From NCBI GenBank assembly GCA_018902385.1, contig JABSSW010000024.1, positions 248,001-312,000 of the forward strand: a DNA stretch of 64,000 nt. The letters are read 5' to 3'. The translations under genes were made by a program, and so were the position numbers. Positions 23,407-55,195 of this stretch are shown piece by piece. Origin of the DNA: Physcia stellaris (lineage: Eukaryota; Ascomycota; Lecanoromycetes; Caliciales; Physciaceae). The notes below the pieces were generated by a model. The model saw only the letters and a program-made list of their open reading frames with translations. It did not search any database and was not told where the DNA came from. Positions within the stretch are counted from its first letter, which is position 1, and every line of letters begins with the position of its first letter.

Positions 23407-24902
23407 ATGTTTCCCCAGCTGTACCGCCGCACTCTGCCACTCCTTCTGGCCAATCCATTGCTCATAGCGGCTATCTCTCTAGATGTGTATGATCAGTGTG
23501 AGTAGGATCTCCGCTTGCGTGTGCTGAATTACCAAACTGACCTCTGCAAGCATCAATCAAGAGCGCTGCGCAAATAATAGCAAAAGACTTGATTGCCTAT
23601 TACAAAGGAGATGGCGCCGGTGTGGGACTATTCGCGGACGAATACAACTGGTATGAAGTTGGCGGAGTATGGTCTGGTATGATTGATTATTGGGCATACA
23701 CTGGAGACGACCAATACAATGACCTTGTTCAACAAGCGCTGGCTGGTCAGAGAGGGCCGAACAACGATTACATGGTTCCCAACCAGACAAAATCAGAAGG
23801 CAATGACGATCAAGGTTTCTGGGCCCTGGCTGCGATGAACGCGGCTGAGAAAGGGCTGCCGACTGCCTCTGGCTCCCCAACCTGGCTCGACCTCGCAAAG
23901 AATGTCTTTGACTTGCAAGTCGCCCGGTGGGATACCAAAACGTGCAACGGAGGCCTCAGATGGCAGATTTTCAAGTTCGAGTCTGGTTATGACTACAAGA
24001 ACAGCATATCGAATGGAGCCTTTTTCCAATTGGCCGCACGTTTGGCAAGTTTCACGGGCAATCAGACTTACAGCGACTGGGCGAAAAAGAGCTACGACTG
24101 GACCAAGTCAATCGGCTTGATCACTAATGACTTTGATGTTTACGATGGAGTAATGACAGCGAACGGTTGTAAATCGCCAACCCGACTACAGTGGAGCTAT
24201 GTTTCTGCTTGCTTTACTTATGGCAGCGCAGTGATGTATAATCACGTATGTGCAATCCTTACTCCAACCCAAAACGGAGGGCGGAGGACTTCTCAACCTG
24301 AATGCTGATTGGTTTAGACATCCGACTCGAGCTGGCGAGACCGGACGAACAGCTTCTTAAACGCGACACAGCTGTTTTTCAAAAACAAAAACAGCCAGGG
24401 AGTAATGACGGAAGTAGCTTGCGAGTCTCACGACACCTGTACGACCGACATGTACGCCTTCAAAGGGTATGCAGCTCAATGGCTTGGAGCCATACCCCCG
24501 GTCGCGCCCTACGCTTCTGACTTTCTCTCACCTTTACTGCGATCGTCGGCTCAGGCCGCTGCGAAGCAGTGTTCCGGAGGCAAAAATAAGACCGCGTGCG
24601 GATTCCAGTGGACAGCTTCCAAATATGATGGCAAGACGGGTTTAGGCCAAGAGCTGAGTGCTTTGAACGTGGTGCTGGCAAACCTGGCCGTGAAGAGCAC
24701 TGGGCCGGCGAATGCCACCTCGAGTAGCACGCGGACGACATCGGCAGGAAGCCGTGGGCAAGGTGGCAGCAGTGCAAACACGACTGGCTCGGCGTCAGCA
24801 GCTCCGCAGCCGTCAGGATCTGGATCGACGGGTTTGGGCAACTTGATGGCGGGCAATGCTGTCTTATGGGGTGTGCTAGCAGCAGCTTGGTATCTTTTAT
24901 AG
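23407..24902 (+). CDS. GH76 endo-1,6-alpha-mannosidase, GPI-type (Dfg5/Dcw1 family)
   Basis: 456 residues in three exons: 23407..23497, 23551..24245, 24318..24902. The family (Dfg5/Dcw1) transfers GPI-linked mannoproteins to cell-wall glucan. A signal peptide covers roughly residues 1–24 (LPLLLANPLLIAAISLD). The GH76 core starts SSIKSAAQIIAKDLIAYYKG and contains NDDQGFWALAAM, which carries the catalytic Asp pair. It continues CNGGLRWQIF, NSISNGAFFQLAARLA and the C-terminal ELSALNVVLANL. A Ser/Thr/Gly-rich spacer and a hydrophobic tail (AVLWGVLAAAWYLL) form a GPI-anchor signal. Both introns are canonical. The gene is intact and of normal family length. Confidence 0.93.
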
Positions 24903-29395: not shown

Positions 29396-31061
29396 ATGTC
29401 AACCACCAGTAGGAAGACAAACTCACCTATTGATCTTGACTTCACCCTCCGAAGAGTCTTTGGAAAGGCCGCTTTCAGGTAAAAGAACCTTATAATCGCT
29501 CTCAGTCGATCCCTGATTGAATAACATCGCGCAGACCTTACCAGCGAGAGATTATCACTGCGGCACTCGAAGGCCACGATGTCTTTGTTCAAGCAGGTGA
29601 GCTCTCTGTTGCTCTCTATGAGTTCCAAACTGACTTCGCAACACTAGCAACATCGTTCGGAAAAAGCCTTTGCTATCAATTGCCTGCTGTCATCGATCAT
29701 GGCATTACGGTTGTCATATCACCGCTTCTTGCCTTGATGAACAATCAAGTTGCAGCACTTCAAGCAGCAAATATAGTAGTAGCAACACTCAATTCCAACA
29801 CTCCATATTCCGACAAGAAGGCCATTATCGACGATCTCAAGTGTGGTATGCGAATCTCGGACTGCAGAAACATTCTCGTTCCTGACTTGCGTCAGGGCAC
29901 CCTCTGACCAGATTGCTGTACATAACGCCAGAATATACGCTTACAGAGACCTTTCGAACACATCTCAAGACGATCTACAATCAAGGCGAGCTCTCCCGGA
30001 TTGCGATTGACGAAGCACATTGCATTTCGGAATGGGGTCATGATTTTCGTCCTGCTTATTGCCATCTGTCTCACTTTCGCCAGACTTATCCTACAGTCCC
30101 TATAATCTGTCTCACAGCAACCGCTACGCCATCTGTCCGCAACGACATCATCAAGACCTTGACACTCGACCCAACGAAGATTAAAACTTTCTGTACGAGT
30201 ACCAACCGCCCAAACCTACATTACGAAATCCGCTTCACGAACGACGAACATGATACACGCTTTTCCTCTCTTCTTACCTGGCTTCAAGCCATCTATGCCC
30301 GCCGATCACAATCACCTTCAGCACCAAACGTTCGTCCTACCGCCGTCTCCGGTATAATTTACACCTCCTTCCGTAATTCCTGCGAAGATCTCGCGTCGCG
30401 TCTCCGTTCCCACAGTATCGGTGCCGCACCTTACCACGCCGGTCTCTCGAATCTGGATCGCGTTGATACACAGCACAAATGGCTTGTGGGAGAAGACGGG
30501 TACGATATCATCGTTGCGACTACAGCATTTGGGATGGGTATTGACAAGCAGGATGTACGCTTTGTGATACATTGGTGTGTACCCAAATCATTCGAAGGCT
30601 ACTACCAAGAAGCGGGAAGGGCGGGACGTGACGGAAAAGCTGCTGCCTGTATCCTGTTTTACTCAAGAGAAGATCGAGATCGGGTTGCATATCGAATTAG
30701 CAAAGATGCTGGGAATAGTGGCGGTCACGATCAGGAGAAAGGACCTAGCACCCAAGTCAAAGGTCGCTCAGACAGTTTTCAGAGTCTAGTCAAGTATTGC
30801 GAAGGTACGGGACGGTGTCGTCATGAATTCATTCGAGAATTTTTTGGCGAGGGAAAAAGCGTAATTGGTGGCTTTGACTCGACAGAGCACGGAAAGGGCT
30901 TGAGTGGTAACGTGATGTCAATCTGCGACTATGCTTGTGATTACTGCAAAGATTCAAAAGACTTAAAGGAGAGAAAGCGAGAAGGGCTAGCAAGCGAGGA
31001 ATGGGTCAGTACCCAGAGAGAAAGAGGTGGTGATAGCTTCTATGGGGAGGGGTGGGATTAG
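29396..31061 (+). CDS. Short RecQ-family DNA helicase
   Basis: 502 residues in four exons: 29396..29478, 29535..29596, 29648..29845, 29896..31061. Motif 0/I region: FRPYQREIITAALEGHDVFV and the Walker A AATSFGKSLCYQLPAV. Motif II is DEAHCISEWGHDFRPAY (DEAH box), motif III LTATATPSVRNDI, motif V ATTAFGMGIDK and motif VI YQEAGRAGRDGKAA. The RecQ zinc site follows (YCEGTGRCRHEFIREFF, then CDYACDYC). There is no HRDC domain and the RQC part is short. It is therefore the small fungal RecQ, not the large Sgs1/QDE-3/BLM type. Expected role: 3'-to-5' unwinding during recombination and fork repair. All splice sites are canonical and the frame is intact. Confidence 0.9.
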
Positions 31062-31922
31062 ATCCAGCTTAAGTCGACTGCTGATTTGAAAGGCAGAATC
31101 AACACCCTCTCTCACACTGACTAGTAGGCTTGTGATCAATAGGGACAAGCAAGGAAGCAGCATACTGCAGGGACCCAAAAGATTCTTAGTCTGAAGGCGA
31201 ATGGTCCTATGTCGTATACGTCAGAACCTAATACCACTTAATCGTAAGTTTTGTTAGATCTGGTTGTAATCATAATGATACTAATGACCTTAGGCTGTTA
31301 ACGAGTTCCGAAATCTCTGTTTGAACTTCCAAATCATTACTTTCCATTTTCATTAGTCCACAAGCTTCGATTCATGGCCATCTTCTTTCTCCCTTCACAA
31401 GATCGCATCACACAAGGAAGAAGCCTTGTTGAAGGTGCATTATTACACTCCCTAGAAGCAGCTATCAACTTCACTCCTTCATTTGTTTCGGGACAATCAT
31501 TGATGGTGACGGCTATCGGCACCCACCATGTTGACCATCGGTGTCACAACTTTTGATGCAGTCTGTCCTTTTTCTTCTCTACACAATAATGATGGGAATG
31601 GCTGTATAACTTGCAGATGACTCTTCGTGTCATACTCTAAGCCCTGATTTTTATTTCTCCATTTCCTTTCTAGACATGTTCCCGTCATTGGAGCCTCTAC
31701 GTCGACTTTTATAATGACTGCAGTCTAGACCGTCAAGAAACCATGACTTTGTTTGGAAACCGAGCATCTAGCTCACGATTCAATATTGTACCTCAAACTC
31801 AATTCTTCCCCTAAAGAATTAAAGTGTACAGATATTGTTTCAGCAATCACAGATTGCAACATCCACCAACAGTACATCACGAACCATCCATCAAATCCGC
31901 GTCAGCCCGCCAAAGACCAACC
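31062..31922. other. Intergenic, promoter side of the repeat-protein gene
   Basis: 861 bp with no supported gene. An in-frame ATG at 31824 lies 99 bp upstream of the chosen start, but the signal peptide begins only at 31923. Confidence 0.45.
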
Positions 31923-34900
31923 ATGTATTTTAAACATCATCTTGTGGCCCTCTTCGCAGGCCCCTTCATCCTTATCTTTGCATTCACCACCCCAGCAGCT
32001 TCAGCACAAACATCCTCTCCAGCCCCCGTGTCTCCACCCTTATCATCGACTGCACCGCCAACAATAACAGCCAATCTGGCGGACCCGACTATCTCGAGTC
32101 AATTCCAACTCGGCCTCAACAACGGCCTCCGAACCCTCTGTCTCGGGCCCCAAAGCAGCATTCAACCTCCAGACAACCATGCTTCAGCCCCTTCACCCAG
32201 CCAAGCGTTGAAGTTGACAATGCAGCATATCCAACCCTCTTCCGGTGCCGGGATGGCAGCTGAAAGCTTTAGCACGGTTACGCAAGTCACTACGGAATCG
32301 ACGGCATATGAGACCGAGTTACTGAAGATCACTACCGTCACTGCGTGGATTGACGTGCTCAGTTTCTTGGACGCCGGGAGTGGGATGCAGACGGGTACTT
32401 CGTTTCGAGGAGCATCACTAGGAGTAAATGAGAGAGCAAGAGCGAACGGAGAAGTATTGGTCACGGTCACGAGGACGCAGATTGCTACCCAGACGGCGGT
32501 CGTCAAGGAGGTGGCTGTTACGGCACTGATCTACGTTCTCTCATACCCTGCCTCGAGTCTCACAGACGCGGCGATTACGACGGCTTATTCGAACCCAGCG
32601 CCTACTTTGCTTCGTGCAGGGAATGGCACTAATATATCCCAGAACCTGCCGAATCAGCAAGCTGCCTCTCAAAATCAAGCCGAGATGCTACAGGCTTTTA
32701 AAGATGGTTATGCGCTAGGAAAAGAAATGGAGAATCCTTGCGGTCCGGCGCGTGCACCTGCTCTAGGTGCTGTAGGTAAGACGGAAAATGTGCGGAAAGG
32801 TCTAGGGGAAGGGGTTCTCGATCTGGTCGGTGTTGAGCCTGACAATACGGGATCTGGCCATAGATTAAGAAGGCAGAACCACGATGTTTTTGAGAAGCGA
32901 ATTGGAGGATCCGGAGCTCATGGAAGCGGAAGTGGAAGCGGAGGCCGAGGGGGCAGCGCTCACACAGGTTCAAATATTGTTGGGTCGGCCACCTCATGCG
33001 CAACCCACACGACAGCTATACATAATCTACTAATCACAGCCCTAGTTATTGGCTTCTCGGTTTTTGGAGCTGGAGCGTCAACGGCGGATTTCTCGGGCAG
33101 TTCTTCAGCTATCTCGACTTCAATGGAACTTAAAGCTTCGGATCCCACAGAATCCTTACCTTCAAACTCGTCTCCATTCGTCACAAACACCTTGCGCTCA
33201 CCCACCAATCTCCGACTGGACTCGCTCACCAGCCTGGAGAAGAGAAGGGGAGCACCGGCAGCAGCAGCGACGGTAGCAGATCTAAATTCAGGTGCGACTG
33301 CTCGACCCAGCTCACCACCGATCCGACTCCTCCTGGTCGTCGCCCTGCTGTTTGTGCTGTTCACCACCAGAGTCACAGCTGGTACCACAGCTGAGCCTGG
33401 ATCCGTGGTCGTTGATAATTTGGCCGTTACTCGACACGTGAGTGCTACGGTACCAGAAACTTTGAGATCCCGAGAGGTCGATCCTACTTCTACAGAGGCC
33501 GACACCGCTCCTTCAGGCATGGGAAACAGCGATGAAGGGAACAAAAGGCTCAAAGGCGGGGTTTACGTTAGCACGGGTGCACGCCCTCGCTCAACGGCAC
33601 CAACAAGATGGGTATTCTGGATCATTGTTCTAGTCACCAGCTTGACCACTTTTGGGGCGAACGCTACTCATGTGCACTCTAGCATTGACTCTACGGCTAT
33701 CACAAAGCTGGCGTATAGCGTCGACAAGTCTCCTACCCGGCTTGCATCACCCCGTCAAGCTCCTCACCATGAAACGAAGCAAATCACAAACAAGTCACCC
33801 AACCCCTTCATCGCAGCACGACAGCAGCTAAGTGGTGGTGGATACGATATCACCCCGGTGCCCCTGGTAATGTGAACGGCCCAGGCTATCACATCGTGCC
33901 AAATCAACTTTGCAGTGCTAAGTACGATTACAACTGCGGTGATGCTTCATTGGGAGCAAGACCGTCTATAAAGCTGGCCCTTCTTACTCTTTACTTCTTG
34001 TTCGGTTGCGGATTTGTCAGTGCTGCTGGTTCAGCTATTACTACACGAGATACGACAGATATTCTAGATCTCGAAAACTTTAATCCTACATATCCGCCCT
34101 CCAACACTTGTACTACTACGACTTCGCTGCCTACTTTTGTTTCGGGGCCTGGAAGCTCAGATACGGAGATGGACGCCCGACCTACTAAGCGCGTGAGGTT
34201 CCTGCTCGGAAAGGAGCGTCGCAGTAGTATTCCCGAGGAGAGGGAATCGACACGTATAAAGCAAGACTTGATCAAAGGAGGGGCAGGGAGATCAACGAAG
34301 CCCAAGCCCAAGCCAAAGGATATCGCAACTCGCCGGCCTCGATCGCATTCTGCTCCTATTCTTGGCCAACATACGAACTCAATCTTGACGACCGCTTCAA
34401 TTGCCCTGGTTTTCGCGATCTCGATCAGTGGCTGCGCGGCATTGCCCAGTCTCTCAGCCCCAGAAGCCTCGTCGGCCATAAGTCTTCCAACGCATATCCT
34501 ACGGTCGGTGGACACTGGACTTCCGTCTTCTACGGCGTTGGCTCATCGTGAAGAGCAAGGAGAGAGCCAACCAGATGATGAGTCAAAACGGCAGCACCAG
34601 CAGAGCGGCGGCACCAGCGGTAGTGCTGGAGGATGCTACGAAAATTGCAAAAGTGCTTCAGCTCCCAAGCCAAGGCCAAGGTCCCTTCTCTGGTCTTCCA
34701 TTCCCCTCCTCCTCATGCTACTCGGTTGCACAGCGTCGACCACCTTGATATCCACTGAAGCTTCGTCGACCATAAATCTTCCAACGCATATCCTACGGTC
34801 GGTAGACACTGCACTCCCGTCTTCTACGGCGTTGGCTCATGGTGGAGGTCAAGCGAAGAATGTCTCGGACAGCGATACTGACAAAAAAAATCGCGGTTGC

Positions 34901-36741
34901 GGCCCCCATGGGTGTCCCCACTCCTCATCTCCCAAAATCTGCTCAACCTCAATCATCCGGCCTTCCCTTCCTCTTCTCTTCATCCTCCTCAACTACATCA
35001 CCGGTGCCGCAGCCTCAGACAACGTCTCTACTGTCGAGCCCCTATCCACAGACTCGACTCAACCGTGCGAAGACGGGCTGGATCCGTCTCCAATCGGCTC
35101 ACCTCCCAATGTTACCCCCGTTGCCAATAACCAACAAGCAGGAACTCTCCAAGCCGCTCAAGCAGCCGAAGGTTTCCCAGTCACCTCAGGGACCCCGAGC
35201 TATAAAAGAAACGCCATCGCCCGCCGTGTGGCGACTGGCGCTACGCTTCACAATACCTCCAAGGCCACCCAATCAAGATTGCCCTCCCCACTGCTACTCT
35301 TCGGCATCCTAGCGCTTTTCTTCGCAAACCAAACATCGGCGCTCACGCTCGGAAGCTCGGCTATGGCTCGCCGCGCTCTACCTGACATCCACGCCCGTTC
35401 GCATCGTCCTGAGCCCTCAGCCGCGGAACCGGAGCCGGTAGCAGTGATCCTGCCCCAAAAGCTGGAGATGTCGGAAACCGTCGTAACCGAATCTGAATCT
35501 ATATTCGAATATTGTGTCCAAATGACTGACGATGAAGGAATGGAAGATTGTTATGAATACATATCCGTTGAATATGGGCTGGAGAGATCCGAAACCGTCG
35601 CTTTTAGATCTGATTCTAGACTCGGCGGGGTCCAAATATCTGGCGAAGAAGAAGAAGAAGGCTGTTATGAAAGCATGGAGGATGGAGTCGAGGGTGCGAA
35701 CCCCAACGCTGGTCACAGGAATCTTGCCGTACGCTCAACCCCAACGCCGGTGCCCCTTCCGACTCCCATGCCCGTTCCTGTTCCTGATCGCCCTGAAGAC
35801 TCTGCAGCCGACCGATGCAACCAAATGAGCAACGACGGGGAAAGAGGAGATTGCCTGGCTGCAGTGAAAGCCGGACCTGCTCCGAACACCCTTGGAAACT
35901 CTAGAGCCGAACAGTGCAACCAAATAAGCGATGAAGCAGCAAGAAATGATTGCCTGAGCACCCCCGCTAGCCATCCTCGAAACCTAGACGCGGCGGATAC
36001 AATCGCACGTAGGGAAGTCGTCACAGGCGACGAGTGCGAACGTCTGCCCACAGAAGAAGAACAACATGATTGTGAGCTCGAAGCTAACGGTGGAGCCGCC
36101 AAACGGGACCAGAATGAGAACACCCCCGCTAGCCATCCTCGAAATTTTGATAGACGGCAGGATGGTGCGGTCGCCAGCGCTGGGCAGGAAGACATCATTG
36201 AGTTTAGCTATGATGACTCCACCCCCGTCCTCGAAAGCTACACAGACGGCAAGATGGTGCGGTCGCCAGCGCTGGGCAGGAAGACATCATAGAATATAGC
36301 TATGATGACCACCCCGCTACCCGTCCTCGAAATATAGACAGACGGCAAGATGGTGCGGTCGCCAGCGCTGGGCAGGAAGAGACCATCGAGTTTAGCTATG
36401 ATGACACCCCCGCTACACGTCCTCGAAAGCTAGACAGACGGCAAAACGTCGACCCTGAATACGCCGTATGCGCCAATATGACTGACCAGCAAGAGAAGGA
36501 AGGCTGTTTAGAAGGCCAAGACGATGGACCCGAGGGTGCGAACCCCGACGCTGGGCAGACTGAGACCAGGGATCTCGGCGCCACCTCCCCCACCGAAGGC
36601 ATCGCGAGGAGGGATCTCCAGGCCCGCTGGGAGACGGCGTCGAACAAAGGGGCGATTATCGCCATATCTTGTACTATTGTGGTGTCGATCCTTGTCGGGT
36701 TGTTTTTTACCTTAGTGAAGAGGAGGACTAGGGCGGAGTAG
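31923..36741 (+). CDS. Giant protein with nine tandem signal-peptide-like segments
   Basis: Three consecutive frames fill 4.8 kb almost without a gap: 31923–33875, 33872–36292 and about 36217–36741. Joined they give about 1,606 residues. I recognise no family. Residues 1–29 are a signal peptide (VALFAGPFILIFAFTTPAAS). Eight more segments of about 20 hydrophobic residues recur, each preceded by Arg/Pro and followed by small residues: LLITALVIGFSVFGAGAS, IRLLLVVALLFVLFTTRVTA, WVFWIIVLVTSLTTFGANA, LALLTLYFLFGCGFVSAA, SIALVFAISISGCAALPS, SIPLLLMLLGCTASTT, LPLLFILLNYITGAAAS and LLLFGILALFFANQTSA. Ser/Thr-rich spacers with dibasic sites separate them. Five C-x11-C modules and a C-terminal helix (AIIAISCTIVVSILVGLFF) end it. 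The frame breaks sit in C runs (33854, 36222); a 44-bp intron at 33872–33915 is an alternative for the first. Confidence 0.5.
34463..34840 (+). repeat. Internal 84-bp duplication in the repeat-protein gene
   Basis: Copies at 34463–34546 and 34757–34840, 294 bp apart (a multiple of three). They differ at only a few positions and encode EASSAISLPTHILRSVDTG versus EASSTINLPTHILRSVDTA, then LPSSTALAH in both. This shows recent duplication of a whole hydrophobic module. Confidence 0.9.
36152..36441 (+). repeat. 96-bp tandem repeat near the 3' end of the repeat-protein gene
   Basis: AGACGGCA-A/G-GATGGTGCGG starts copies at 36152, 36244 and 36340, and a partial fourth starts at 36436. Spacings are 92, 96 and 96 bp. 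A full copy is 32 codons (RRQDGAVASAGQED, then IIEYSYDDHPATRPRNID). The first copy is 4 bp short, which throws the reading frame. Confidence 0.9.
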
Positions 36742-38039
36742 AAGCGGGGTTGATGGGATTGGGGTTATATTACTTTACTTGGGGCACGGAGGGGGGAGGG
36801 GGAGATGTTTTGAGTGTTGTGTATGTATGTATGTTGGTAGGGTGGGATTGAATAACGGGAGATATTTGCGTGCGGATTTTGGGAAGCTGGGACTTCTTCT
36901 AACAGAAATTTGAATATCGGTTTTGGACATCTTCCCTTGTTGCTTCCATTTCCAAACCTCATCGTCTCGCTAACATCCCTCCCCTTGTCTGTCCATTCTA
37001 TTCTACGTACTATTTTTGCACCCTTCTCCCATGACACAACATCCATACACAACGGCCGAACACGCACACACTCGATCATGGACAACGCACTTATATTATT
37101 CTCTAGTCGTGTGGAGGGAAAATCTTCCACGCTCCATCTACTCTAACATAATCATGAAACGGAGCACTGATCTCGAAAACAGTGTCAAAGATAACGTCCA
37201 GAGGTAGAGAGACCAAAAAAGAAAACGAAGGCCGAATTCGATACGTATCCAACAGTCCAAAGAAATCAGCATGGCAATATATCCTCTTCTCTCCACCCCA
37301 TCTCTTCCCTCCCACGATCAGCTTCTTCGTTCTCCTGCGCCCACCCCTAAACCCCAAAAAGCACAAACCCCAACACCGCACCCCCGATCACAAGTCCCAA
37401 GATTCGCGTCGTCGCCGTCTCGCTTCCTCACACCTGCCTGTGTCTGTGTCTCTTTTCTCGTTCTCGTTCTCAGGAGCGGGGAAGGATGGGATTTGAGGTT
37501 TTCTAGGGGGAATGAGGAGGAGAAGATTGTTGAGAAAGGGAAACATTTGGGCGTGGTTGTTGATAGAAGTTTGATTTGAATTGAGATGAGCGGCCCCATA
37601 AAGGAAAAAAAAAGATTAGAAATAGATGATAAAGATGGGAAAAGAGAGAAAAAGACACTCTGCTGTAAGAACGAGTGCTGTGTGGGTCTGCGAATGGGAG
37701 CGAAGGGTTTGTGCTGGGAGAAGGGCAGAGGAGAGAACTAGAAGAGAGGATTCGGAATATTGCGTTTTTATTTTGGGGGATTGGGGGAGAGGGATGGGAT
37801 GAGTTGATTTAGTTGGTGGGTTTGTGGAGGTGATGGATGATGGATTCCGGGGGGGGATGGTTCTGGTGGTAGAAGATAGGGGCTGAGAAGAGAACAAAAA
37901 AAGCGGCAGAAGAAGGACGAAGCGTGAGTAGTGAAATGATAAAAGAAAATAAAGAAGTTGATTAAAGAAAAAGTAAAAAAAAAGAATAGAGAGAAAATTT
38001 CCAATTCGTAAATTGCGAATTTTAGATGAAAAATGATCG
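36742..38039. other. 3' flank of the repeat-protein gene, low complexity
   Basis: 1.3 kb without a supported gene. Purine-rich stretches occur near 37600–37800 and A/G runs near 37950–38000, grading into the AT-rich island. Confidence 0.45.
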
Positions 38040-40380
38040 ACAACTGTTGACGAAGAACAGAAAATAACTATTTTAATAATTCAAACATCATTTTCATCAA
38101 ATATCATTTTCATCAAACATCATTTTCATTTTCATTTCATTAATATCAATATTTTTTTTTCGCTGTTGAATTTTTCTTTCATCTTTTTTCATTTTTTTTC
38201 TTCTTTTTTTTCGCGTTTTTTTCAACTTTTCATTTGTATTTTTTTGCTCGCTGATTCTGCAATCATTTCTGAAATTAAAATTTTATAATTTTTAGTGCGC
38301 GAAAAGCAAAGCTTGACATTATTTTGATCAATAAAATCGTTGAATTTTTTGTTTTCGAATTGATTTATTAACATACATCGATTCGAAAATTTCGAAAATC
38401 GCATTTTTGATTTTTTAAATTTTCACATTTTTTTCGTTTTTATTGTCAGACATTTCATGAAACTTTTTCAGCATGCATCGATATTGCAAATCGTCGTTTC
38501 GTATTCTGAACATGCAAAACTGATTTGAAAAAAACGAAAACGAATTCATTTAATTTTCTTGTCGTTGAAATTTATTTCGATCAATGTTTTTCGTTTCGAT
38601 GTGACATTTTCATTTTGTTTGCAAAATTCACAATATTTTTTTTCGTTTATTTTTTTGATATGATGATTAAATTTCTTAAACATTTTTTTCGTGTACATGA
38701 TCATGTAATCGAAAATGTAAAAAAAATATTTTTTTAGCGAAGCAAATGAATTTCGTCGATCAACAAAATTTTCGAACATTTTGATTGCAATTGTGCGTTG
38801 AAATTCTATGTAAATTATACGAATTTTCGAATTCAAAAGCTTGTAAAATAAGTAAAAATTGATTACAAAAATCATTAAAATGTTGATTCATGATTTTCAT
38901 CAAAATTTTCGATTTTTGATAACAATAAAAAAGTAAACGATTTTCATTTGTGCATTGTTGTCGATATCACTCATGTGCTTGTTGTATTGTCGTATAAATT
39001 TTGAAAAAAAAAAATTTTCGAGATGTATATTTTTCGATGAAATGTTTTTTCGTTTTATCGAATTTTTGTAAAATTTCTCGTCGAAATCTTGAAAAATATG
39101 AATCGTAATGAAATACTGAATCGTGAAATTGTTTTGAAAAACAGCGCAAAACATTTGATTTTTCTGTGATCAACGTTTACATTTGATTTTCGAAAAATTT
39201 GTTGTTGTGAATATTAAAATTTCTCAATCAATTTTTTTCGTAAAAATGTTTCGAAACTTTAACAACGATGTTGAATAATCGTTTCGAATTTTGATCGTAT
39301 CGAATATATCGTGATCGCGTTTTTTCAATTCGATGATCAATTTGACGTTGTTGAAAAAATTGTTCAAAATCAAAACGTAATTTTCGACGTTTTGATAAGA
39401 AATATTTTCGATCAACTGAGTAATCACGCGAACAAAATTCGAAAATTGATTTTTTTTGAATACGAATATGTTCAAATTTTGATTAATTTTCAAATTTGCA
39501 ACGTCAAATTTCTTGAAAATGTAAAAAAATTCAACAAATAATTTCCATCTGCTATATCATAGTATTTGTAATTTTTTTTATTTGTTTTCACGTTCAATTT
39601 CATGATGTGTACATTACGAATTTTACATATATTCAACGTTTCGTCAACAGCAAATCAATTAAACGAAATTCAATATTTCAAATTAACGAAACGGAATCGT
39701 TGTAAAAAAAATCGAATTTTCGATATCATTCAGAATTTTTGTCGTCGATATTATCGTTTGAATTGTTGATTTTCAAACAACATTTAATATTTTCGAATCG
39801 ATTCAATGACATGACGTTTTTGACGATTTGTATAACAAATTGATCGTTATAAAAATTTCAATACGTTTCATGACGTTTACAATCGCAAAAATTCATAATT
39901 AACAAAATATCAATAAAAACGCACATTTTTTGTTCGTCGTTGACATTTTTTTAAAATCGTTGAATTTAATGTTCACGTAATTTTTGAATTTTCATTTTAC
40001 GTCGAATGATTGTATTGCGATTTGTATATTTGATCAACAATTCGATATTGATCATGTTAAAATAAAAATTGAACAATTCGTAAAAATCGTTTCGTATGAT
40101 TTCGAACACGAAATTAAATTTAACAAATTTTTTTGCGATTTGCAATGATATATAATTGTTTAAAAAAAAAAATAAATTATGCAAAATTTGACGCAAAATT
40201 TTTTCAAAATCGATTTTTTCTTTTTCAAATTTTTATTGAATTTTCGAATTTCGAAAAATTCATTGTTTTTTTTTCCGGAAATTTCGCGCTCGTCAATTTT
40301 CATTTTGATCAGATATATTAGCTGTTAAAATCACAAACTCGTCAAATATGCAAAAAATAAATAAATAAAATGTAATGTGC
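38040..40380. repeat. AT-rich island (mutated repeat DNA)
   Basis: Base composition changes sharply at both ends: inside, runs such as ATTTTCGA, TTTTTTTC and AAAATTTTCG dominate, and G and C are scarce apart from CG in TTCG contexts. This is the appearance of transposon DNA heavily mutated C-to-T (RIP-like). It contains the copia relic described separately. I found no long terminal repeats. Confidence 0.8.
38220..39500 (-). mobile_element. Decayed Ty1/copia-type gag-pol (relic)
   Basis: Degenerate minus-strand frames show weak copia hallmarks in the right order. At 39493–39224 is a gag-like segment (LIENISYQNVENYVLILNNF). Near 39150–39070 a zinc-knuckle-like stretch with its Cys/His and Gly partly replaced is followed by DEKFYKN. 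At about 38980, DNNAQMKIV stands where a protease D-S/T-G-A would be. At about 38650–38560, KKYCEFCKQNENVTSKRK resembles the C-x2-C of the gag-pre-integrase. At 38360–38250, FENKKFNDFIDQNNVKLCFS is followed by a degenerate S-E-M-I where integrases read NG-x2-ER. Reverse transcriptase and LTRs are not seen, so it is truncated or beyond recognition. The identification rests on motif order in mutated frames. Confidence 0.5.
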
Positions 40381-41636
40381 GAAAATATCGAGGTGAGAGG
40401 TGTGGGAAGGTCAGAAAAACAAACAAACAGTTTCACTTACGTGCCAAGCAATTAGCGCCGAACTAACGGCTTGGCGGTGATGGCTGCAGAGTCAGCGGGC
40501 AAAGAAATACCTCCCAGCTCTCCCCCTTTCTCTCCCTTCCTCATCCTCCCGTTCGTTCGAGTAATCAAAAACATCCATTCACGAAAAACACTGCATATAA
40601 TCAACTTTGAAGAAAGGCTTGAAGCGCTTGATTGAATGCTGCAGGCTAAGAAGTTAGGGGCGTGAATGATGGAAAGTGAGCTGGGGGAGTGGGGATTGGG
40701 GATTAGGGGTTGAAGATTGGGAGTGGGGAGTGGGGAGTGGGGAGTGGGGAGTGGGGAGTGGGGAGTGGGAGATTGGGGAGTGGGGGAGTGGGAATTGGGT
40801 TGGGAATTAGGGGGTTAGGGGAGTTTGGGGGATTGAGATTGAAGGCTTCGGGGGGATTGAGGAGGTTGGGAGGGGATCGGTGAGATTGAGAGGTTGAGAA
40901 GTGAGATTTTTGAACCAAATACCCTTCCATTCATGTAAAAGTAGATAACCCCGAACTCTCGTCAGCCGATTCCGAGGTCTTAGAATTGAGATTTTTCTTC
41001 CTTCCCCTCCTCAAAGCGACCGATCTCCGGAATCTTAGGAATGGAGGTTCAGGAGTGGAAGGGAGCTTTTCAGGAAGAAAATGCTACAGCATTAAGCTGA
41101 TCGCTCGAGCTGCAAGGGCTGGGTGGATGAGGGGGTTGAGACGATGATTTAAGTCTCTTGCCCATCGATGTGGTGTAAGGGAGACACTTTTTGCTGCACG
41201 GGAAAAGAGAAAGGGAGGAAGAAAGAAGAGGAAGCAAAAGGTTAAGAAAGAAAACAGAAAAAGCCGGGAAGACAGAATGTGAAGGAAACGCCGAAAAGAA
41301 AAAGAAAATGCGAAGAATGCTACCCGGGCCAATTTTGCTCCAAGCGGTTTATGATTGTAAAAAGAAAGAAGTAGAAGATGCTGCAGCTGAAAGAGATAAA
41401 GAGATGATGATGCGTGGGAGGATCGGAAATGGGAGGGGGGCTGACATCAACATGGTATCTGATTCCCATATCGCAATAATCGAAACAACAGTCTGCCTCA
41501 AGAGCGCCCATCCCCCCGACAAAATCAAGAAACAGCCGCACAAAAGCTAAATGCTGGCATAGTCTCCTTCCCCCGTTTGAACTTCTCCATCCATAATCTT
41601 TCCACCCTCCCCACCCCACCCCTCCCCCCCTCCTCT
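40381..41636. other. Flank of the AT-rich island with a G-rich minisatellite
   Basis: 1.26 kb without a supported gene. It contains the GGGGAGT array at 40719–40769 and purine-rich DNA at about 41200–41330. The 119-codon plus frame at 41191–41550 is antisense purine-rich sequence. Confidence 0.45.
40719..40769 (+). repeat. GGGGAGT minisatellite
   Basis: About seven perfect copies of the 7-bp unit GGGGAGT in a row, within a longer G-rich stretch (about 40680–40880). Runs of four G every seven bases could form a G-quadruplex. Confidence 0.9.
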
Positions 41637-45468: not shown

Positions 45469-47146
45469 TCACAGCCTGTTCACATCGAAGCTCTTTCTCA
45501 ACCTCTCACCATACTTCATCATCGCCCATGGAACCGGTATACACGCCACGGCAATGAATCCTAAAAGGCTATTGCCCCAGCCGAGTCCAAGTGATGCATA
45601 CATGCTCTGACCAGCCAAAGGTAAAAGGGCACCCATGATGCTTCTGACCACTGTGTTTGCTGCCAGGGCACTCGCTGCATAAATGGTGAATGCATCAACA
45701 AGGTAACTCGTTACACACATAAAGACGGCAATATTACCGATACCAACCAAGGCTGTACCGATGATAGGGACGATCCAGTGCGTCTTGTACTGAGCTGACC
45801 ACCCATAGAGGAAAAGACCTGCTGGGATGAAGAACGCACCCACCACAAGAGGTGGGAGACGGTACTCAGGTTCCATGACTCCCGACGGTGACTCGGGTGT
45901 TGGTTTTGATTTGGCTTTGAGGATACGGTCGGAAACGGCGCCGATGACGAAGAGCCCTAGCAATGAACCCACACCAACACCAAGATATGAGAGGCCAACG
46001 GACTTTGTTGGGAACGCGTATTGTTCTTCAAAGACGAATGTGAAGGTCGCAAACATAAGATATTGATATCCATACACGACACCGACGTAGATTGAGCAGG
46101 CGAAGACGATGGGTGAGAAGATGAGAATCTTGGTTGGTCGAACAATAGCTCGAAGGAACAGCTGTTGCACGGTCAGACCACTGTCCCGCTTCGAACGCAG
46201 ATCGGTGTTTCCGGTTTCTTTATTGAGACGTAAGGTTTTGCGCTTGAGGAGCACAGTCGTGTAGGTCTCGCGTAGGAGGAGAACAGAGATGATGGTGAAG
46301 AATCCGCCGACTATTGTAAGAACCCAAAAGACCCATCTCCAGCCGCGAGCGGCTACGAGGTATCCTCCAGCTACAGGTCCAATGACCGGTCCAAGTAAAG
46401 GTCCGAGGGCATAGATCGCAATTACACCTCCTCGTTTCTCTTGTACGATAAGATCTGCAATGGTACCGCCGCCTACGAGAAGAGCAGATCAGTATATCGA
46501 AGTCAACGGAGCAAGCAAGGGATAGAGAGAAATATAATGTACCATTCGTTACAGGCGCAGAACCAAAGCAACCTTGGAAAAACCGAAAGGTGATGAGCAT
46601 GCCGAGATCTGTACTGACCGCACAGGCAACAGAGAATATAATAAATCCGATGTTACAAATGTGATAAATAATCGCTCTGCCATACAGCTCTGATGCCGGA
46701 GCCAGTATCAGAGGCCCGATTGCGAATCCAAGGACGTACACGGAAACCACGAACCCAGCCAACAACGTGTTCGTGCTGTGGAATTCGGCCATGATTTCAG
46801 GGACACCAGGCGCGAACATGGAAGAGGCCAGCGGTGTGACAAAGGTCAGTGCGCTGACTATACCGACATTGATTGTTTTTACGCCGGCACTAAAATTCAT
46901 TGGATTTGCTGGGTCATCGGGGCCGTCCCAGTCTACTGTGTTTGGGTCGACAACTGGGGCTTTCTCAACCTCTGCTGATGTATCGACGAGCGCGGCATCT
47001 TGGTTTCCGCCGTCTGTGATGGAGTTGTCGACAGATAGATCTGAACTTGTTGCCTTGCCGCTATCTGTAGATGTCTGGACAGGCATGGAATCTCGTTTTT
47101 CTACATCTGTGGGCTCCAGCACAGGCGGGGCCGAAGTCGTAACCAT
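45469..47146 (-). CDS. MFS drug/metabolite exporter (DHA1-like)
   Basis: 535 residues in two exons: 47146..46543 and 46472..45469 (70-bp intron). A long acidic cytoplasmic N-terminus (about 90 residues) precedes VDWDGPDDPANPMNFSAGVK, typical of fungal DHA1 multidrug transporters. Twelve hydrophobic segments can be traced, with the motif-A-like LAPASELYGR after helix 2, GGTIADL after helix 4 and RGWRWVFWVLTIVGG near helix 6. Motif C-like GPLLGPVIGPVAGGY lies in helix 5. It lies next to the chimeric terpene synthase and is a candidate exporter of its product (inference). It is intact, so the locus keeps its exporter although the adjacent bZIP is dead. Confidence 0.9.
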
Positions 47147-48108
47147 GCTGCTGGCGGTGCCTAGTTTGACGAAAGAGGTTTCTTGCTAACCTTATCTGCC
47201 CTTGATATTAGAAACAGTGTATCTCACAGTCCTGGGCAGGTGGACGTTCGATGACTTATTCGGTAACGATTCAAGGAGGGAGAGGCTGGATGAAGTTTGG
47301 ATTCCGCTTAAAAGAATCAACGGGTAGCTGCGCTCGTTTTGCCTTGTCTCATCTGCATGTCAGCACGGAGGTAGGCCTATGTCCGCTAATAAGGCCGTGT
47401 TTGGGCACATTCTTATCATACTCGGAACACGGAAGACCTTGCGAGGGGTTATGCTTACAGATAGTACCACAATGCAGATCGCTACACCGATCAGTCGAAA
47501 CTCGAAGGTGGTGGGTAGTACGAGCGAGTACGAGGTACTTTTCGAAGCTGTCAAACGGCGCTAGGCCCTATCGGCACCGGAAACGCCAAGATCCGATGGA
47601 ATGGGAAATAATAATCATGGGAAAGTGCATCTTATTTATGTACATGTCCGGAATCACACGTCAAATCGCGCTTCTATCTTTGATTACATACGAGACTACA
47701 CATCACCTCTATCATCACTACGCGCGATTAGACATCAAAGACGGGCTTTATTGGAGATGTCATATATCGGCAGACCTAATTTGGTACTCCGGAAGTGATC
47801 CTCACTTCCCGTCCACCTCTATGTCCTGTATCATCGGGTGCACGGCTATCTGAGAGCGGTGGGGTAAACAACTTACCCAGCAAAAGTCCTGACTCCTGGA
47901 TCTGCTTTGGTTGACGAGAAGGAAATAAGGTGCAGCCTTGCGGGTTTGAAGGAACCCGAGAGGCTAGAGCTGCCCATCAACACGAACCTCGACCATCATG
48001 GAGAAAATCAAATCTTAATTGTGTCCATGCAAGTAGCATCTCATCAATAATCGTTACTGCATTGCCCGAATCACGGGCCATCCAACACACCCAAGCGAGG
48101 ATTGGCAT
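47147..48108. other. Upstream of the MFS gene, downstream of the terpene synthase
   Basis: 962 bp. A 200-codon plus-strand frame (47251–47853) has no motif or plausible composition, and I treat it as chance. No clear regulator site can be named. Confidence 0.4.
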
Positions 48109-50748
48109 TCAAATCTTCAGCATCGCAACAATCAACCTGAACTCCAAATTCTCGACTCCAAATTCCTTCTCCAACTCCTCAACGCTCTTCTCCACTTCCG
48201 CATGAAGTACACCTAGCATTTCTGCAGTAAATTTCAAACTGCCCTCTTTCTCCATCATGTCAAGAATGGTTTGCTTGTGTGCCAAACTCGATTGATCTTT
48301 CACACGCCGTTGAGTCAAGATATTCCGAAGGACATAGTCACCGGACATGGAATGGATAAGGTGAATGAGTGGTAGTGAGTATTTTCCCTCATCGAGGTCT
48401 TCACAGAAGCCTTTCTGCTTTGTGTACTGATATTAGTTAGTCTTTCTTCCAGAATGGGAGAAAATATTGGCATACCTCCAGTGCCACCAAATTTTGGTAG
48501 TCATCTCGAGTTTGATAATATCGCCCGAAGGCACTGACAAGGCTGCCAAGATCGATTTTGAAAGGCCGGGTAGAGTGGACTGCCATGAGACGAGAGAAAA
48601 GCCTGAAAAGACCTCCGGTTTCTACAGATGATCAGTGTGTCCCTCGATGCGCCCGAAATCGTAAGACTTACTGTTCTCGACCATCTTGAAGTACTGATCC
48701 ACCGAAGGACAAATAAGATTACTAGTCCAGTATAGATCCAGACTTTGGCCGACATAGAGGTTCTTCAATTCCTCTGAGAGCAGAATCGTCAATGTCGGTT
48801 CGCAGTAGGACAGACTTACTGACCAGTAAAAATCGTGAGGCTTTCCACGTCACCAAGTTTCTGTACCTCCTCCAACGCTCGAACAATCTGGTAATTTGCA
48901 GAATTTACTGTCTGCCCTGCTCCAAATATTGTGTGCGTTGATGGCTTTCCTCGGCGGAGTCGTGATCCATCCTCCAAATCATCAAGCCTGTGATGTGTCA
49001 ACAATTTGTGATTGATAGATCACGTGGATGCACTACATCAGTGAGGCACTATGGAGCAGTGAGATAATCGATTTGATTCTCTCCAATTTCAACGAGGGCA
49101 CAAGGCACCAGACATTCAAGGCGTCGATTGCTTGCTCTCTGACCCCTTTCGACGGAAGGGAGCTTATATATTCGTATGGTGCTTGAATGACCTGTTGGGC
49201 AGTATTTAGCAGTGTGCTTTCAGAATAAGAGCTCAAGGGTATGGCCCTCGTATCTAACTAACCTTCGAAGACAAGTCCTCCACGTTTTGTTGGAGCACAC
49301 AACCTGTATGAAGCTCAGTAGCAACGGAAGCTCGAGTGGTGGTTTCGTCATGCAAACCTGCCCCTCCAAGGCCATTAAGTTTTTGGGTTGCAAAGACGTT
49401 AACAAGGCTAGTATCAACCATCCCGTTGCTGGATGTATCGTCGCACCTCAGAGATTGCGTTCCACTCGAATGATTCGTGACTTCGGCTGTTACGGATGAG
49501 ACTTCGCCATTGCTAACGCCGTTCGTCTTTGCGGTTTTTGGGTCGAGCGAGCCGTTTGGACGCGTGACCTCCCCTTTTGTGGAGCTCTTATCGCTTCTGG
49601 GAATCCCATTTTCCATCCAATCAAGCTGTCTTTCGTTATAAGAGGACCAACGATGATACCTGGGACAATCCAAACTCCAAACAAGATTTCCGCTCAAGCT
49701 GTAGAGGAGAGCCTCGAGATACTTCTTCAGCTCTACCGATACATCGGTTCTCTTCATTGTTTCTTCACCGATCCTCCGAAAGTCAACAATAGTCGCCTTA
49801 ATTTTTACTCGACATAATGCTTTGGCTTCCTCCTCGGAGATGCTATGTTCCTCCATCAGTACCGAAATGACATTAACAACATAATCTTGTCCCAAGGCTA
49901 CTGAGGTTTCGTATTTTTTTTGCCATGAGTAGAGGTCGTTCGTGAGGCCCAGATTTAAATATGCGGTATTGGCCAGCTCGTGGCAGAGATCCAACTCTTC
50001 TTTAGGTATACTTATACCCATTCCAAAAGTTACCATGCCGTACCAGAACCTGTTCCTCAATTAGCTGCAGCTACTTTCAAGGATTCAAAATAACCGACAT
50101 TGTACCTATGTCTACCATTCGATATGCAATGTACTCGGCTTCTGTTTTGAAGTGGGTTTGATGTTGACGACCGGAGCCCAGTTCTGCGAATTTAGCCCAA
50201 GCTTTCATTGTGAATGCCAGCATTTCCAGAGCAATCTTGGATTGGATTGCCCTCTTTCCTGATACAGCATTCTCGATTTTTCCCGTCGCGGCTCCTTGTT
50301 CAAATGCAACCATCAAGTCATTATTGTGTAATTCTCCCTGTGTCTCATCAAATCTTGTTCCTGTAGAGATTTGTGAGACTTACAAGAGATGCGATGTCCG
50401 TAACATCTGTGTAAACATTAGCAATTCAGTACACAGAATGTAAGACGAACAGATCTCGTCATTTCGCTTACCATCATGCAGGAAAGCCAATTCGTTTGCA
50501 TAACCCAGGACCCCCAACCTTTCCGGCAAACATTCCGGAACAGTGATAGCCATGAAATTCCACCTCGGTCCTAGGCCACCCTTATAAAACCCTAGAGGCC
50601 CAACATATTCTCTCCAATCCTCCTGGCATCTTAGAGTCTCAATCTCTTCGAACTCCGGGTTATGGTGGCATCTGAGGGGAATACCCTCACAAAGGCCTTC
50701 AGTTTCATAAGTTGCGGGGTCTACGACTGTAGAGAATCTGAATTCCAT
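48109..50748 (-). CDS. Chimeric terpene synthase (cyclase + prenyltransferase), PaFS-like
   Basis: 733 residues in nine exons: 50748..50472, 50406..50384, 50337..50099, 50049..49263, 49191..49037, 48987..48824, 48773..48672, 48621..48476, 48417..48109. The N-terminal class I cyclase opens [20 protein letters not shown]. Its Asp motif is FLHDDVTD (D92, D93, D96). The NSE region is [11 protein letters not shown] (N217, S221), but residue 225 is Lys where Glu or Asp is expected. A variable linker (about 330–440) joins the C-terminal polyprenyl synthase: [20 protein letters not shown] (FARM D496, D497, D500), RDDYQNL (SARM 622–626) and [20 protein letters not shown]. Such enzymes make C20/C25 polyprenyl diphosphate and cyclise it (fusicoccadiene, ophiobolin types). 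All introns are GT–AG, with the rare donors GTCGGT and GTCAGT. The product cannot be predicted. Confidence 0.95.
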
Positions 50749-53022
50749 GTTCTCGGACAGGGCGAAATAGATTCCAAAGTATGTAATGGAAGGGCTATAT
50801 GAACGAGAACCGCGGGCTTGAAAGATGACATCTAAATGTAAGCACCTATATAGAAATACTCCAAATCAGGCTTGCATTCAAAGACCGCAAGACTTGATTC
50901 CGATGCAACGTCAGCGAGGCTCTCCACGATCCCACAGTGACTTCAAACTGAATCCTTCGGGGACGAAAGATTCTGTCAGTGTCAGCTCTGTCATGCATGC
51001 CTCGACGCCTCGTTCTCGTTCGTTGAAACGATCTTGTCCGGCGATCCTTACTCTTCTCGGAATCAGGCAGATTCCGTTACTACGATAGTAGCCGAAGGTC
51101 AGAACCCTTCTCCGCTAAATCCTGGAGGGCCCACCTCAAAGGATTAATAATCTCGAAAGGCCCAAACATCAAAATCTCGTTCCCTACCTTACAACCGCCA
51201 CCACACCATGGCCAAAGGTAAACCCGACTGTTACACACGTGAAAAGCGTTATCTAGAGGTCAGTGAGGCTTGAATTCTCGGCGATTCCAAATCAGTTGCC
51301 GATCAGCAGTCAGTCATTATAATGATACACTCAGCATTGAGATAAACTAATCAGATTAACCGAGACTTGGCGCGCTTATGCACATAACCATTTCTGCCTT
51401 CATAGCATGCACCAAGCAATGAAAATGACGCAGACCTTGATATTCTGACAGTTGATAGGCAGTTGGCGTGTGTCCAATGAACATTTTGTGTGGTGTCACC
51501 AAACATCCCTCCCACAGCTCGGATAATTGCTACTGGCGGAACTACTTGATCAACTCCGAGATTGGACACGGCGCAGAGGATCAAAACTTAAGATAAGTCC
51601 GAGCTAGCACCATCCGTGCCCGGCGGCCAGGTGCATCTCTTTCGCATTTTGATATGATCCTCTGCACGCTTCGAGGTGCCATGTACGTGGTGCATCGTCA
51701 TAGATTGGCAGTAAGTCTGCCATGCTACATGCAGAGACCCAGAACATCACTCGCCAAGCTACAACTTGTGCAACATGTCTCTGTATTATATGTGTTACAT
51801 TCAAAGAATCAACTGAATCATACCCTCTTTGTGGCAAAGCTCTCAAAATATATTTGGGTTTGAGTTGAGATTGTGATACAATGCGCACCTCAGGGCTCTT
51901 TCATTGACGGAATTTTCGCTCTTGGGAGCAACAAAGCTTGCATGACATCTACAGCAATGATCAAATGGTGAGTGACAGACCATAATGGCAGCCGCTGTGC
52001 TAGTCAGCAGCAACGCGAGTTGCGACACTGCCAACCCCATCCAATCCTACTTGATACTATAAGCCGTTACGTGGCTTAAGTCGTTTACAAGAGGATCAGA
52101 TCAGCCGGGCTTATCTTCCCGTCGTCACTTTTATTGAGAATGACCAATTGCCTCTGACCATGGAGGTAGTTTCAGGCGACAGCCTTGAAAAGAGCATGGT
52201 ATTTTCCCCAATGTAACCTGCCATCGGCTGTCGGGTCAATGCATCAAGGCCGATCAGTCAAAGGAGCGGCTCAGCAGATGAGACGCCTGCCGGAGGGGGG
52301 TCTCTTTACCCAATCACGGAGACTTTCCTGCTGTAATGCAGCCAGCATATATCAACCATCCTTTATGCAGTATCTCAAACGATAAGCTACCCTGCTCTTG
52401 TGAGACCACGGGAATTTATCGCTATCATGCAGTCAGCATCCAACGACAATCATTTGCCTTGCATCTCAAATGATTGGCTGCTATCCTTTCTACGAGACTT
52501 CGGGCGTTGTATTGCTATGCAGCCATCACACAGTCAGAGTACACTTCGTCATACGATCGTCTTACCAATCAATCATGCAGTCATCATGCAGTCGTCCCGC
52601 TGTCAACCATTGCCTTGTTGTGATCAAAAGTTATACGTTTTGGGGTACACGATTCCTTAATCATTGAATACGATACAAGTCGTATCCAAACAGAAATTAA
52701 AGTGAAAGAGAACTACAATACGCAGCTTTCTCTTATCTAGGGCGAATGAGGATGAAGTGAGAAAGATATTACAATGACCCAAGGATGATTTCGGAACGAG
52801 CTTTATAATACTGTAAGTGAAGCTCTGAGTCTCAGGATGCCACCACCCCAGCCTCCAGTGGTACAACAATCTATGGAGGATGGAGACAGGGATATTCGAA
52901 TGCTACGTTACAATGTATACGTACCTAAGGAGTAAGCGAGAGTCCTATTAGCATAAGATTATATGTCTTTCTCCTGTAAGTTTTCAGCTCTCACTCCCTC
53001 AAACCTCTATCTCTAAACATAT
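50749..53022. other. Long gene-poor gap in the terpenoid locus
   Basis: 2.27 kb between the terpene synthase and P450 starts, so it carries both promoters. From about 52190 to 52630, ATGCAG and neighbouring words (CAGTCAGCAT, CAGCCAGCAT, CAGTCATCAT) recur in a degenerate way. I recognise no gene or transposon. Confidence 0.5.
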
Positions 53023-55195
53023 ATGCCCACATCAACAATAGAAAACAACAGTAACATGGAATCATTGCTCCTCAAAATCCGGCTTTTCGCTTCTGAAAGC
53101 TCGTTGTTGGCAAAGTACGGTACGCTTGCTACAGTTTTTGGTGTGACCTTGTGCATATACGGCCTCGCACTGGTCATTTATCGTCTTTACTTCGATTCTT
53201 TAGCGAAATTCCCTGGCCCGAGAATCGCCGCTGCCACCGGATGGTATGAGTTCTATTACGATGTGATAAGAAGGGGACAGTATATATATAAGATTGAGGA
53301 GATGCACAAGAAATATGGTACAGTGAGATTACTTTCTTCGCCCTTTCCACTGTCGTACAGTCGCATGGCAATATATATGCATAGAAGAATCAGGATTCCA
53401 CTCAATCAGTCGCAGATTTGAGGCCTCCCAGAAAAACATTGGATCGGACAGTCTCGAAATTCTCCTCTCCTAGACTCCTAGTCATAAGTTAATGCTAGAC
53501 AGGCCCTATCTTGCGAATCAATCCCTACGAGATTGTAATCAATGACCCAGAATTCTATAACGAAGTCTATGTCGCCGGCAATACCCGACGCACGGGGATT
53601 TGGCCGCGCTACAGGAAAGGTATCGGCTTCGATGGTATATCTCTCGCACCCTATCTATTGCTTAAGCTAATCCGAGAAAGGTTCTCATACAATGACTAAT
53701 AACCATGAATTACACCGCCGCCGCCGCAAGCCCCTCGAGCCCTTCTTTTCCCGCCTTGGCATCGACAGGATGGAAGGGATGATCATCGAGGAAGTTAAGC
53801 TACTAGACACCCGGTTGGAGGAAATGAGAGGATCAAAGAGAGTTGTTCGGCTGGATCACGTATTCTCTGCATTTGCTGGGGATGTGATCGGAAGGATATG
53901 CTGCGAGACGCCGCCGAATATGATGAAGGAGGCCGAGTTTGGTGCGCATTGGTAAGTCGTCGCGTATCTGACGTCGTTGAGGACATATTGCATTGACACA
54001 AAGATAGGCATGATCTGATTGAGAGGATTGTAAGGCAGCTTCTTTTGTTCATGCATTTCCCTGTATTGGTCACGTAAGTCTCCTTGTACCAACAACTTCC
54101 GGAGAGCGGACTGCCCCTAACGATGTTCAGCTTGGTTCGAATGTTACCCACGGATTCTCTATTCCGCATCTATCCAGGAGCCGCAGGATTCAATTCGTTC
54201 CGCAAGGTAAGATCTCACACCCAAGTCTAGGGAGAGCTTCACTATGCAACTTGCCAGCTCACAACATCCATCAGCTCGCATTGCAGCACATCATAGACTC
54301 CAAGCGTGAAAATCTGAGTCCTGAAAAGGTGGACGAGAATGCGACAAGCTCCATCTTCCGACACATTGTTTCTAGCGACATGCCTGAATCCGAACGATCA
54401 ATTGAACGGCTGAGTAGAGAAGCGATGGTGCTTTTCGGCGCCGGTACAGCTACGACTGCACGTACAATGGGCTTTATGTCTTATTACATTCTTCGCAATC
54501 CCCACATGAGGGAGCGTCTCGGAAACGAGCTGAAGGATATAATGGCTGCTTATCCTAACGACCTGCCGAGATGGTCTGATTTGGAGAAACTGCCTTACTT
54601 ACAGGCAATCATCAAAGAGGGTCTTCGGTAAAATGCCCCAACTAGGAATTTGCATGGGAAAGTTTTCGCTAACTAACAGCGAAATAAGCTTGAGCTTTGG
54701 TGTCATGCGCCGTCTTCCTCGCTGCTCTCCAGATGTTGCGCTCCAGTATAAGCAATGGACCATTCCCAAAAACACCCCAGTTGGTATGGGGGCATATATG
54801 ATGCACACCGACCCAGAAGTCTTCCCGGAACCTTTCAAATTCATTCCCGAGCGCTGGCTGGGCGATTATGACCCCAAAATGAACAGAAACTGGGTTCCTT
54901 TCACCAGAGGGTCGAGGAATTGTTTGGGCATCAAGTAAGAAGACCACCCGCTCTCGATCTTGCCACAAAACATTCTATTGCAACTCTGTTTTTGGTCGAA
55001 GCCTCTTAACTGACAACCAAATGTTATAGTTTGGCTTATGCTGAAATGAACTGGGCACTGGCCGTCATTTTCAGACCCAATGCCGCGAAATTATCGTTGT
55101 TCGACACCGATGAGTCGGACATTGCGCAAGCAGTGGACTTCCTGATGCCCCTGCCTAAACTGGATAGCAGAGGGACCCGTGTTATGGTGAACTAA
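53023..55195 (+). CDS. Cytochrome P450 monooxygenase
   Basis: 534 residues in eight exons: 53023..53317, 53503..53634, 53681..53951, 54008..54073, 54131..54206, 54275..54627, 54689..54934, 55030..55195. An N-terminal anchor (LATVFGVTLCIYGLALVIY) is followed by the FPGPRIA hinge. The I-helix reads LFGAGTATTARTM (about 334–346), the ExxR is EGLR (395–398) and the haem loop FTRGSRNCLGI holds Cys476, matching FxxGxRxCxG. The layout resembles fungal CYPs such as the trichodiene-oxygenase group that act on terpenoids; the subfamily is not assignable by eye. It lies next to the chimeric terpene synthase and is the likely tailoring enzyme (inference). Intron 1 is 185 bp, longer than the others. No lesion is seen. 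MESLLL at residue 12 is an alternative start. Confidence 0.93.

Follow-up and report, generated by a model that had tools for sequence, protein, structure and literature searches.

Open frames at the locus

Described here is a locus of Physcia stellaris that may encode a large precursor of the secretory pathway. It lies in a stretch of 64,000 nt (assembly GCA_018902385.1, contig JABSSW010000024.1, positions 248,001-312,000 of the forward strand), which is called the window and in which all positions are counted. Three open frames follow one another on the plus strand, and the reading frame switches near 33.87 kb and near 36.22 kb. An earlier note, made from the letters of the sequence, had proposed one protein from this almost stop-free DNA, consisting of nine tandem modules that resemble signal peptides. 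In the best reading of the present analysis, the product would be a secretory precursor or surface protein of units of about 100 residues, which is probably cut by kexin.

31923-33875, plus strand: open frame 1, 651 codons including the stop, from an ATG; N-terminal signal-like segment, N-terminal domain and cores 2-4
33773-36292, plus strand: open frame 2, 839 codons from stop to stop; cores 5-9 and, in its C-terminal part, four Cys-x11-Cys repeats and a fifth without the first Cys
36217-36741, plus strand: open frame 3; the rest of the 96-nt repeats, one Cys-x11-Cys repeat and a C-terminal anchor with a KRR tail

Measured from stop to stop, the three frames are 686, 839 and 174 codons long. 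Among 300 surrogates drawn from a first-order Markov model of this 4.8 kb, the longest frame had a median of 166 codons and a maximum of 325. Open frames of this length are far beyond chance; the description as almost stop-free had passed over the frame changes. Of 17 windows of 300 nt from position 31800 on, 15 had their best full codon score, which penalises stops, in the expected frame. Across six repeat pairs, some of which share a copy, the ratio of non-synonymous to synonymous differences (pN/pS) was 0.80 in the coding frame, while the other two gave 1.08 and 1.33; this is a weak sign of coding constraint.

Hydrophobic cores and their spacing

To detect cores, hydropathy was scanned over 17 residues at a time along the joined frames 1 and 2. 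Eleven hydrophobic peaks were found, where 2000 shuffles of the protein gave 1.8 on average and never more than 6; all nine cores named in the earlier note are among the eleven. The other two peaks belong to the N-terminal domain (residues 133 and 191, scores 1.53 and 1.62) and were excluded from later counts; core 8, which was retained, scores just 1.64, hardly above them.

31941-31991, plus strand: hydrophobic core 1, the N-terminal signal-like segment (hydropathy scan, as for cores 2-9)
33027-33077, plus strand: hydrophobic core 2
33327-33377, plus strand: hydrophobic core 3
33609-33659, plus strand: hydrophobic core 4
33974-34024, plus strand: hydrophobic core 5
34394-34444, plus strand: hydrophobic core 6
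34700-34750, plus strand: hydrophobic core 7
34964-35014, plus strand: hydrophobic core 8
35279-35329, plus strand: hydrophobic core 9
36649-36717, plus strand: C-terminal hydrophobic segment followed by KRRTRAE and the stop, a probable type I membrane anchor

Successive internal cores, eight in all, are separated by gaps of 100, 94, 107, 140, 102, 88 and 105 residues (mean 105, standard deviation 15.5), and an equal or greater evenness was reached in 2 of 20,001 random placements. The 107-residue gap crosses the first frame change, and another choice of junction would shift its value by some residues. Core 2 follows core 1 at 362 residues, outside the even pattern.

Could low-complexity coding DNA give these hydrophobic stretches by chance? 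When the five remaining frames of this DNA were scanned, stops counting as Lys, they yielded 1, 0, 8, 4 and 3 peaks, the eight being in an antisense frame. Thus, the number of peaks is not unique to this frame, and the case leans more on the spacing and the flanks of the cores. An artefact of composition is nevertheless very improbable: 11 peaks were never reached by the protein shuffles, and neither the spacing nor the charge bias described below is readily obtained by random placement or shuffling.

Another explanation divides the locus into several small genes, each beginning at or near a signal-like module. Every core resembles a signal peptide in the small residues that follow it, and eight of the nine do so in their charge bias. 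But each of the eight internal cores is 30 to 188 residues away from the Met that most closely precedes it, frame 2 has no ATG until after core 5, and the frame stays open across successive modules. This explanation seems very improbable.

Flanks and linkers of the cores

The thresholds and windows for the layout were picked after inspection of the sequence, and the P values that describe it are guides only. It had been claimed that Arg and Pro stand before each core. Arg-Pro was found within 20 residues before six of the eight internal cores, not before all, and these are six of the nine RP dipeptides in all (binomial P 0.00026); P was 0.0009 within 15 residues and 0.0019 within 30. The net charge is higher before than after the core in eight of the nine cores, with one tie and no reversal. 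When residues were shuffled within the linkers, eight biased cores were reached in 1.3% of cases, and a summed difference of 23 in 0.26%. On average, 3.6 small-x-small triplets follow a core; the two transporter pieces of the window gave 1.8 and 1.4, and the rhodopsin piece 0. The charge bias, the small residues and the even spacing all agree with the proposal that the cores are signal-peptide-like.

The spacers between the cores had been described as rich in Ser and Thr and as carrying KR or RR sites. The Ser/Thr content of linkers 2-8 is 19-33%, and 15 KR/RR sites were counted against 7.2 expected from shuffles (P 0.003). They are present in seven of the nine linkers, against 4.5 expected (P 0.06); linkers 4 and 7 have none. 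Cutting at KR/RR would divide the joined frames 1 and 2 into 16 fragments, one of them a single residue, and the predicted core-bearing kexin pieces are 317, 115, 100, 200, 85, 206 and 49 residues long. Kexin cutting of the linkers would fit the excess of these sites.

The same layout might belong to an uncut multi-pass or mucin-like surface protein, in which some or all cores span the membrane, the linkers are glycosylated and the KR/RR sites are incidental. Its Ser/Thr-rich linkers, the merely marginal excess of linkers that carry KR/RR, the even number of internal cores and the C-terminal anchor with a basic tail would suit such a protein. It is harder to reconcile with the number of KR/RR sites and with the charge bias. 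By the positive-inside rule, successive segments of an ordinary multi-pass protein alternate in charge bias. In multi-pass controls, the charge was higher before the segment in 1 of 4 (MFS A), 2 of 7 (MFS B) and 0 of 3 segments (rhodopsin), although these controls do not alternate cleanly themselves (before and after, 1 and 2 of 4, 2 and 5 of 7, 0 and 2 of 3). An uncut surface protein is considered unlikely.

Duplications and Cys-rich repeats

34430-34559, plus strand: duplicated stretch, first copy, the end of core 6 and the linker after it; 81% to the second copy
34724-34853, plus strand: duplicated stretch, second copy, the second half of core 7 and the linker after it; pairs with the first copy
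35513-36507, plus strand: Cys-x11-Cys region, five repeats with an invariant Cys pair and one without the first Cys
36124-36444, plus strand: 96-nt tandem repeat in 3.4 copies, at the passage from frame 2 to frame 3

The nine modules had been taken as homologous and as having grown in number by duplication. A recognisable duplication, beyond that of shuffles, was found in just one of the 36 linker pairs, namely linkers 6 and 7, the 14 best pairs being listed. Its step is 294 nt (98 residues), close to the mean core spacing of 105 residues. Homology is borne out by sequence only for linkers 6 and 7, while the kinship of the other modules rests on their spacing and on the Arg-Pro that precedes six of the eight internal cores. 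The Cys-x11-Cys repeats matched no known family in the Pfam scan, the sole comparison made.

Searches for relatives

No second copy was found in the genome of the same organism (147 contigs, 43,974,083 bases) with the DNA, frames 1 and 2 and the piece with modules 6-7 as queries, only the best candidates being scored. No Pfam-A family was found for the three frames at E up to 1; the earlier note, too, knew of no family with this layout. Among solved structures, frame 1 gave three matches, the best of which (E 0.041, a 64-residue stretch, release factor) was judged to be chance, and frame 2 gave one at chance level (E 0.73). As expected for fungal DNA, frame 2 had no relative in prokaryote genome contigs and frame 1 none in viral contigs. 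Rfam models gave nothing at gathering scores over 31000-38000. The locus would thus be lineage-restricted, judging from the missing Pfam match and from searches of collections none of which was fungal. Among the titles and abstract openings listed from an open-licence library, no description of tandem signal peptides within one fungal protein was found.

Two changes of reading frame

33866-33922, plus strand: likely first frame change, from frame 1 to frame 2; approximate, as the frames overlap from 33773

Several weak intron candidates surround the first frame change, none of them convincing. GT-AG pairs of the right phase were scored within set ranges at both junctions. The score discriminates poorly: junctions in two Pfam-supported genes reached only 6.5 (MTR4) and 7.2 (MFS), and a plausible intron of the GH76 gene (24246-24317) fell just outside the set acceptor range, while its donor scored 8.3 with other acceptors. 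The test decides neither for nor against a splice at the first junction. A 44-nt intron candidate (33872-33915, score 5.4) served only as a working model of this junction.

The second frame change coincides with the 96-nt tandem repeat, whose unit spacings of 92 and 96 nt leave a net difference of 4 bases. Frame 2 reads a 76-nt repeat near 35640, and frame 3 reads it again near 36482. Since this repeat and the Cys-x11-Cys unit both continue in frame 3, frames 2 and 3 were most simply once one frame. The change may be real in the organism, limited to this allele, or an assembly error. The locus may be a broken, variable or misassembled gene. A single continuous protein from the three frames is not established, and with two frame changes the full product may not be made by this allele as assembled.

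It is conceivable, though rather unlikely, that the gene is decaying: a former surface or secretory protein would have been split by the two frame changes, and the product described here would no longer be made. The lack of a convincing intron at either change, the net 4-base difference within the repeat, a pN/pS of 0.80 that is only weakly below 1, and the single copy without relatives in the collections searched are all consistent with decay. On the other hand, just two breaks interrupt 4.8 kb of otherwise open frame. The poor separation by the intron score leaves a splice possible at the first junction, and the second break lies within a repeat, a place prone to assembly errors and length variants.

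A proposed membrane-held precursor cut by kexin

Tentatively, I propose that a large kexin-cut precursor of the secretory pathway is encoded here, or was until recently, by one lineage-restricted fungal gene. Core 1 would lead the chain into the endoplasmic reticulum (ER), and all or some of the internal cores would lodge in the membrane. The internal cores are even in number, which would allow a lumenal Cys-rich region and a cytosolic KRR tail. Kexin in the Golgi would then cut those linkers that reach the lumen. If it cut at every KR/RR, the core-bearing pieces would be 49 to 317 residues long and hold one or two cores each, and they would decorate the cell surface or wall. The array may have grown by duplication of units of about 98 residues, followed by fast divergence.

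Several results weigh against this proposal. Besides the two switches of frame, the best intron candidates scored 5.9 and 6.4, against a median of 6.3 and a 90% point of 8.0 at random places. The synonymous part of the codon score did not discriminate between the frames. No relative was found in the collections searched (own genome, prokaryote and viral contigs, with no fungal collection among them), and one antisense frame also yields 8 peaks. The two excluded peaks of the N-terminal domain have net charges before and after of -3/0 and 0/-1, with no clear shared bias. The mostly uniform charge bias of the cores fits poorly with alternating membrane passes, and neither sequons nor KR/RR sites were found to alternate between odd and even linkers. 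Linkers 4 and 7, lacking KR/RR, leave two predicted pieces with two cores each.

Cutting by signal peptidase at each module had also been considered. After a first signal has brought the chain into the lumen, a stop-transfer role is expected of the core that follows, and so the C-terminal side of at most every second core could be exposed to lumenal signal peptidase. On these grounds its cutting at each module of a single chain is doubtful. Another view is that of a concatemer of prepropeptides, in which a whole unit (signal, pro-segment, kexin site and Gly-rich peptide) was duplicated head to tail. About nine signals per chain would each help to pull their own segment across the ER membrane before kexin separates the units; this seems quite unlikely. 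The membrane-held precursor cut by kexin is tentatively favoured, and the decaying gene and the uncut surface protein are its serious rivals.

Comparison with known systems

Msb2 and Wsc are mucin-like single-pass surface sensors with a signal, a Ser/Thr-rich ectodomain, a C-terminal anchor and a basic tail. The predicted Physcia product shares this outline, but it has eight extra hydrophobic segments and KR/RR sites, and no Pfam match. In viral polyproteins with internal signal sequences, stop-transfer segments alternate with the signals. The present chain likewise has several internal signal-like segments, whereas its single cores mostly share the same bias and its three frames have no Pfam domain. 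Precursors of the type of the Ustilago repellent Rep1 have kexin sites and release hydrophobic or amphipathic surface peptides. Compared by this description and not by sequence, the locus is alike in having kexin sites and hydrophobic pieces, and unlike in that its cores are signal-peptide-like, lie about 105 residues apart and are followed by a C-terminal anchor.

The closest comparison in working may be with the KEX2-processed repeat proteins (KEPs). In the 2019 survey (Le Marquer, PMC6339444), a KEP must yield four or more fragments, each at least two residues long, when cut at KR or RR, and predicted membrane proteins are dropped by TMHMM; the available part of the 2020 survey (Umemura, PMC7329392) mentions no membrane filter. 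As in the KEPs so described, the chain starts with an ER signal-like segment (judged by hydropathy, charge and small residues alone), and many KR/RR sites divide one precursor, the 16 fragments exceeding the number asked for. The peptides of KEPs are described there as identical or nearly so, whereas here one of the 36 linker pairs is alike in a linker-by-linker comparison, which is not the survey pipeline. Eight internal cores and an anchor, as seen by hydropathy, also set the product apart from the KEPs of the 2019 survey, which discards predicted membrane proteins. The precursor is thus partly KEP-like in its presumed working and is not classed as a KEP.

Neighbouring genes and elements

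Of the window's 53 open frames with 140 codons or more, 30 were scanned against Pfam, as were the three frames of the locus. The neighbours point to fungal DNA: MTR4 helicase, Alba, WW, HECT, fungal rhodopsin, GH76, a RecQ-like helicase, DUF6594, MFS, terpene synthase and P450. Directly upstream of the locus, the frame of the RecQ-like helicase (29886-31058) matches Helicase_C, RecQ zinc-binding and DEAD. Pieces of an MFS transporter, a terpene synthase and a P450 are clustered at 45472-54628, a possible terpene gene cluster. A UstYa-linked cluster for a ribosomally synthesised and post-translationally modified peptide has no support, since none of 20 PF11807 matches in the genome (only the best candidates being scored) lies on this contig.

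Downstream of the locus lies an AT-rich element (38237-40448, 25% GC) with three more copies in the genome at 84-90%. A minus-strand piece of it (39552-39926, TGA read as Trp) matches DDE_Tnp_1_7 (E 3.7e-7), which I take to be of the piggyBac type. By the thresholds generally used for classical repeat-induced point mutation, its dinucleotide ratios (TpA/ApT 0.45, CA index 1.46) are unlike that process despite the strong AT bias. Just past the element is a 7-base tandem array (40684-40792, consensus GGGGAGT, 15.4 copies).

Significance

If the gene is broken or misassembled, the locus is of far less interest. If instead one translated chain carries eight evenly spaced internal segments that mostly have the polarity of signal peptides, nature would offer in it a test of what the translocon does with segments in a row that favour one and the same orientation. 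Such a chain would further hint at fungal precursors of a class that the 2019 KEP survey (PMC6339444) removed by design, since predicted membrane proteins are discarded there.

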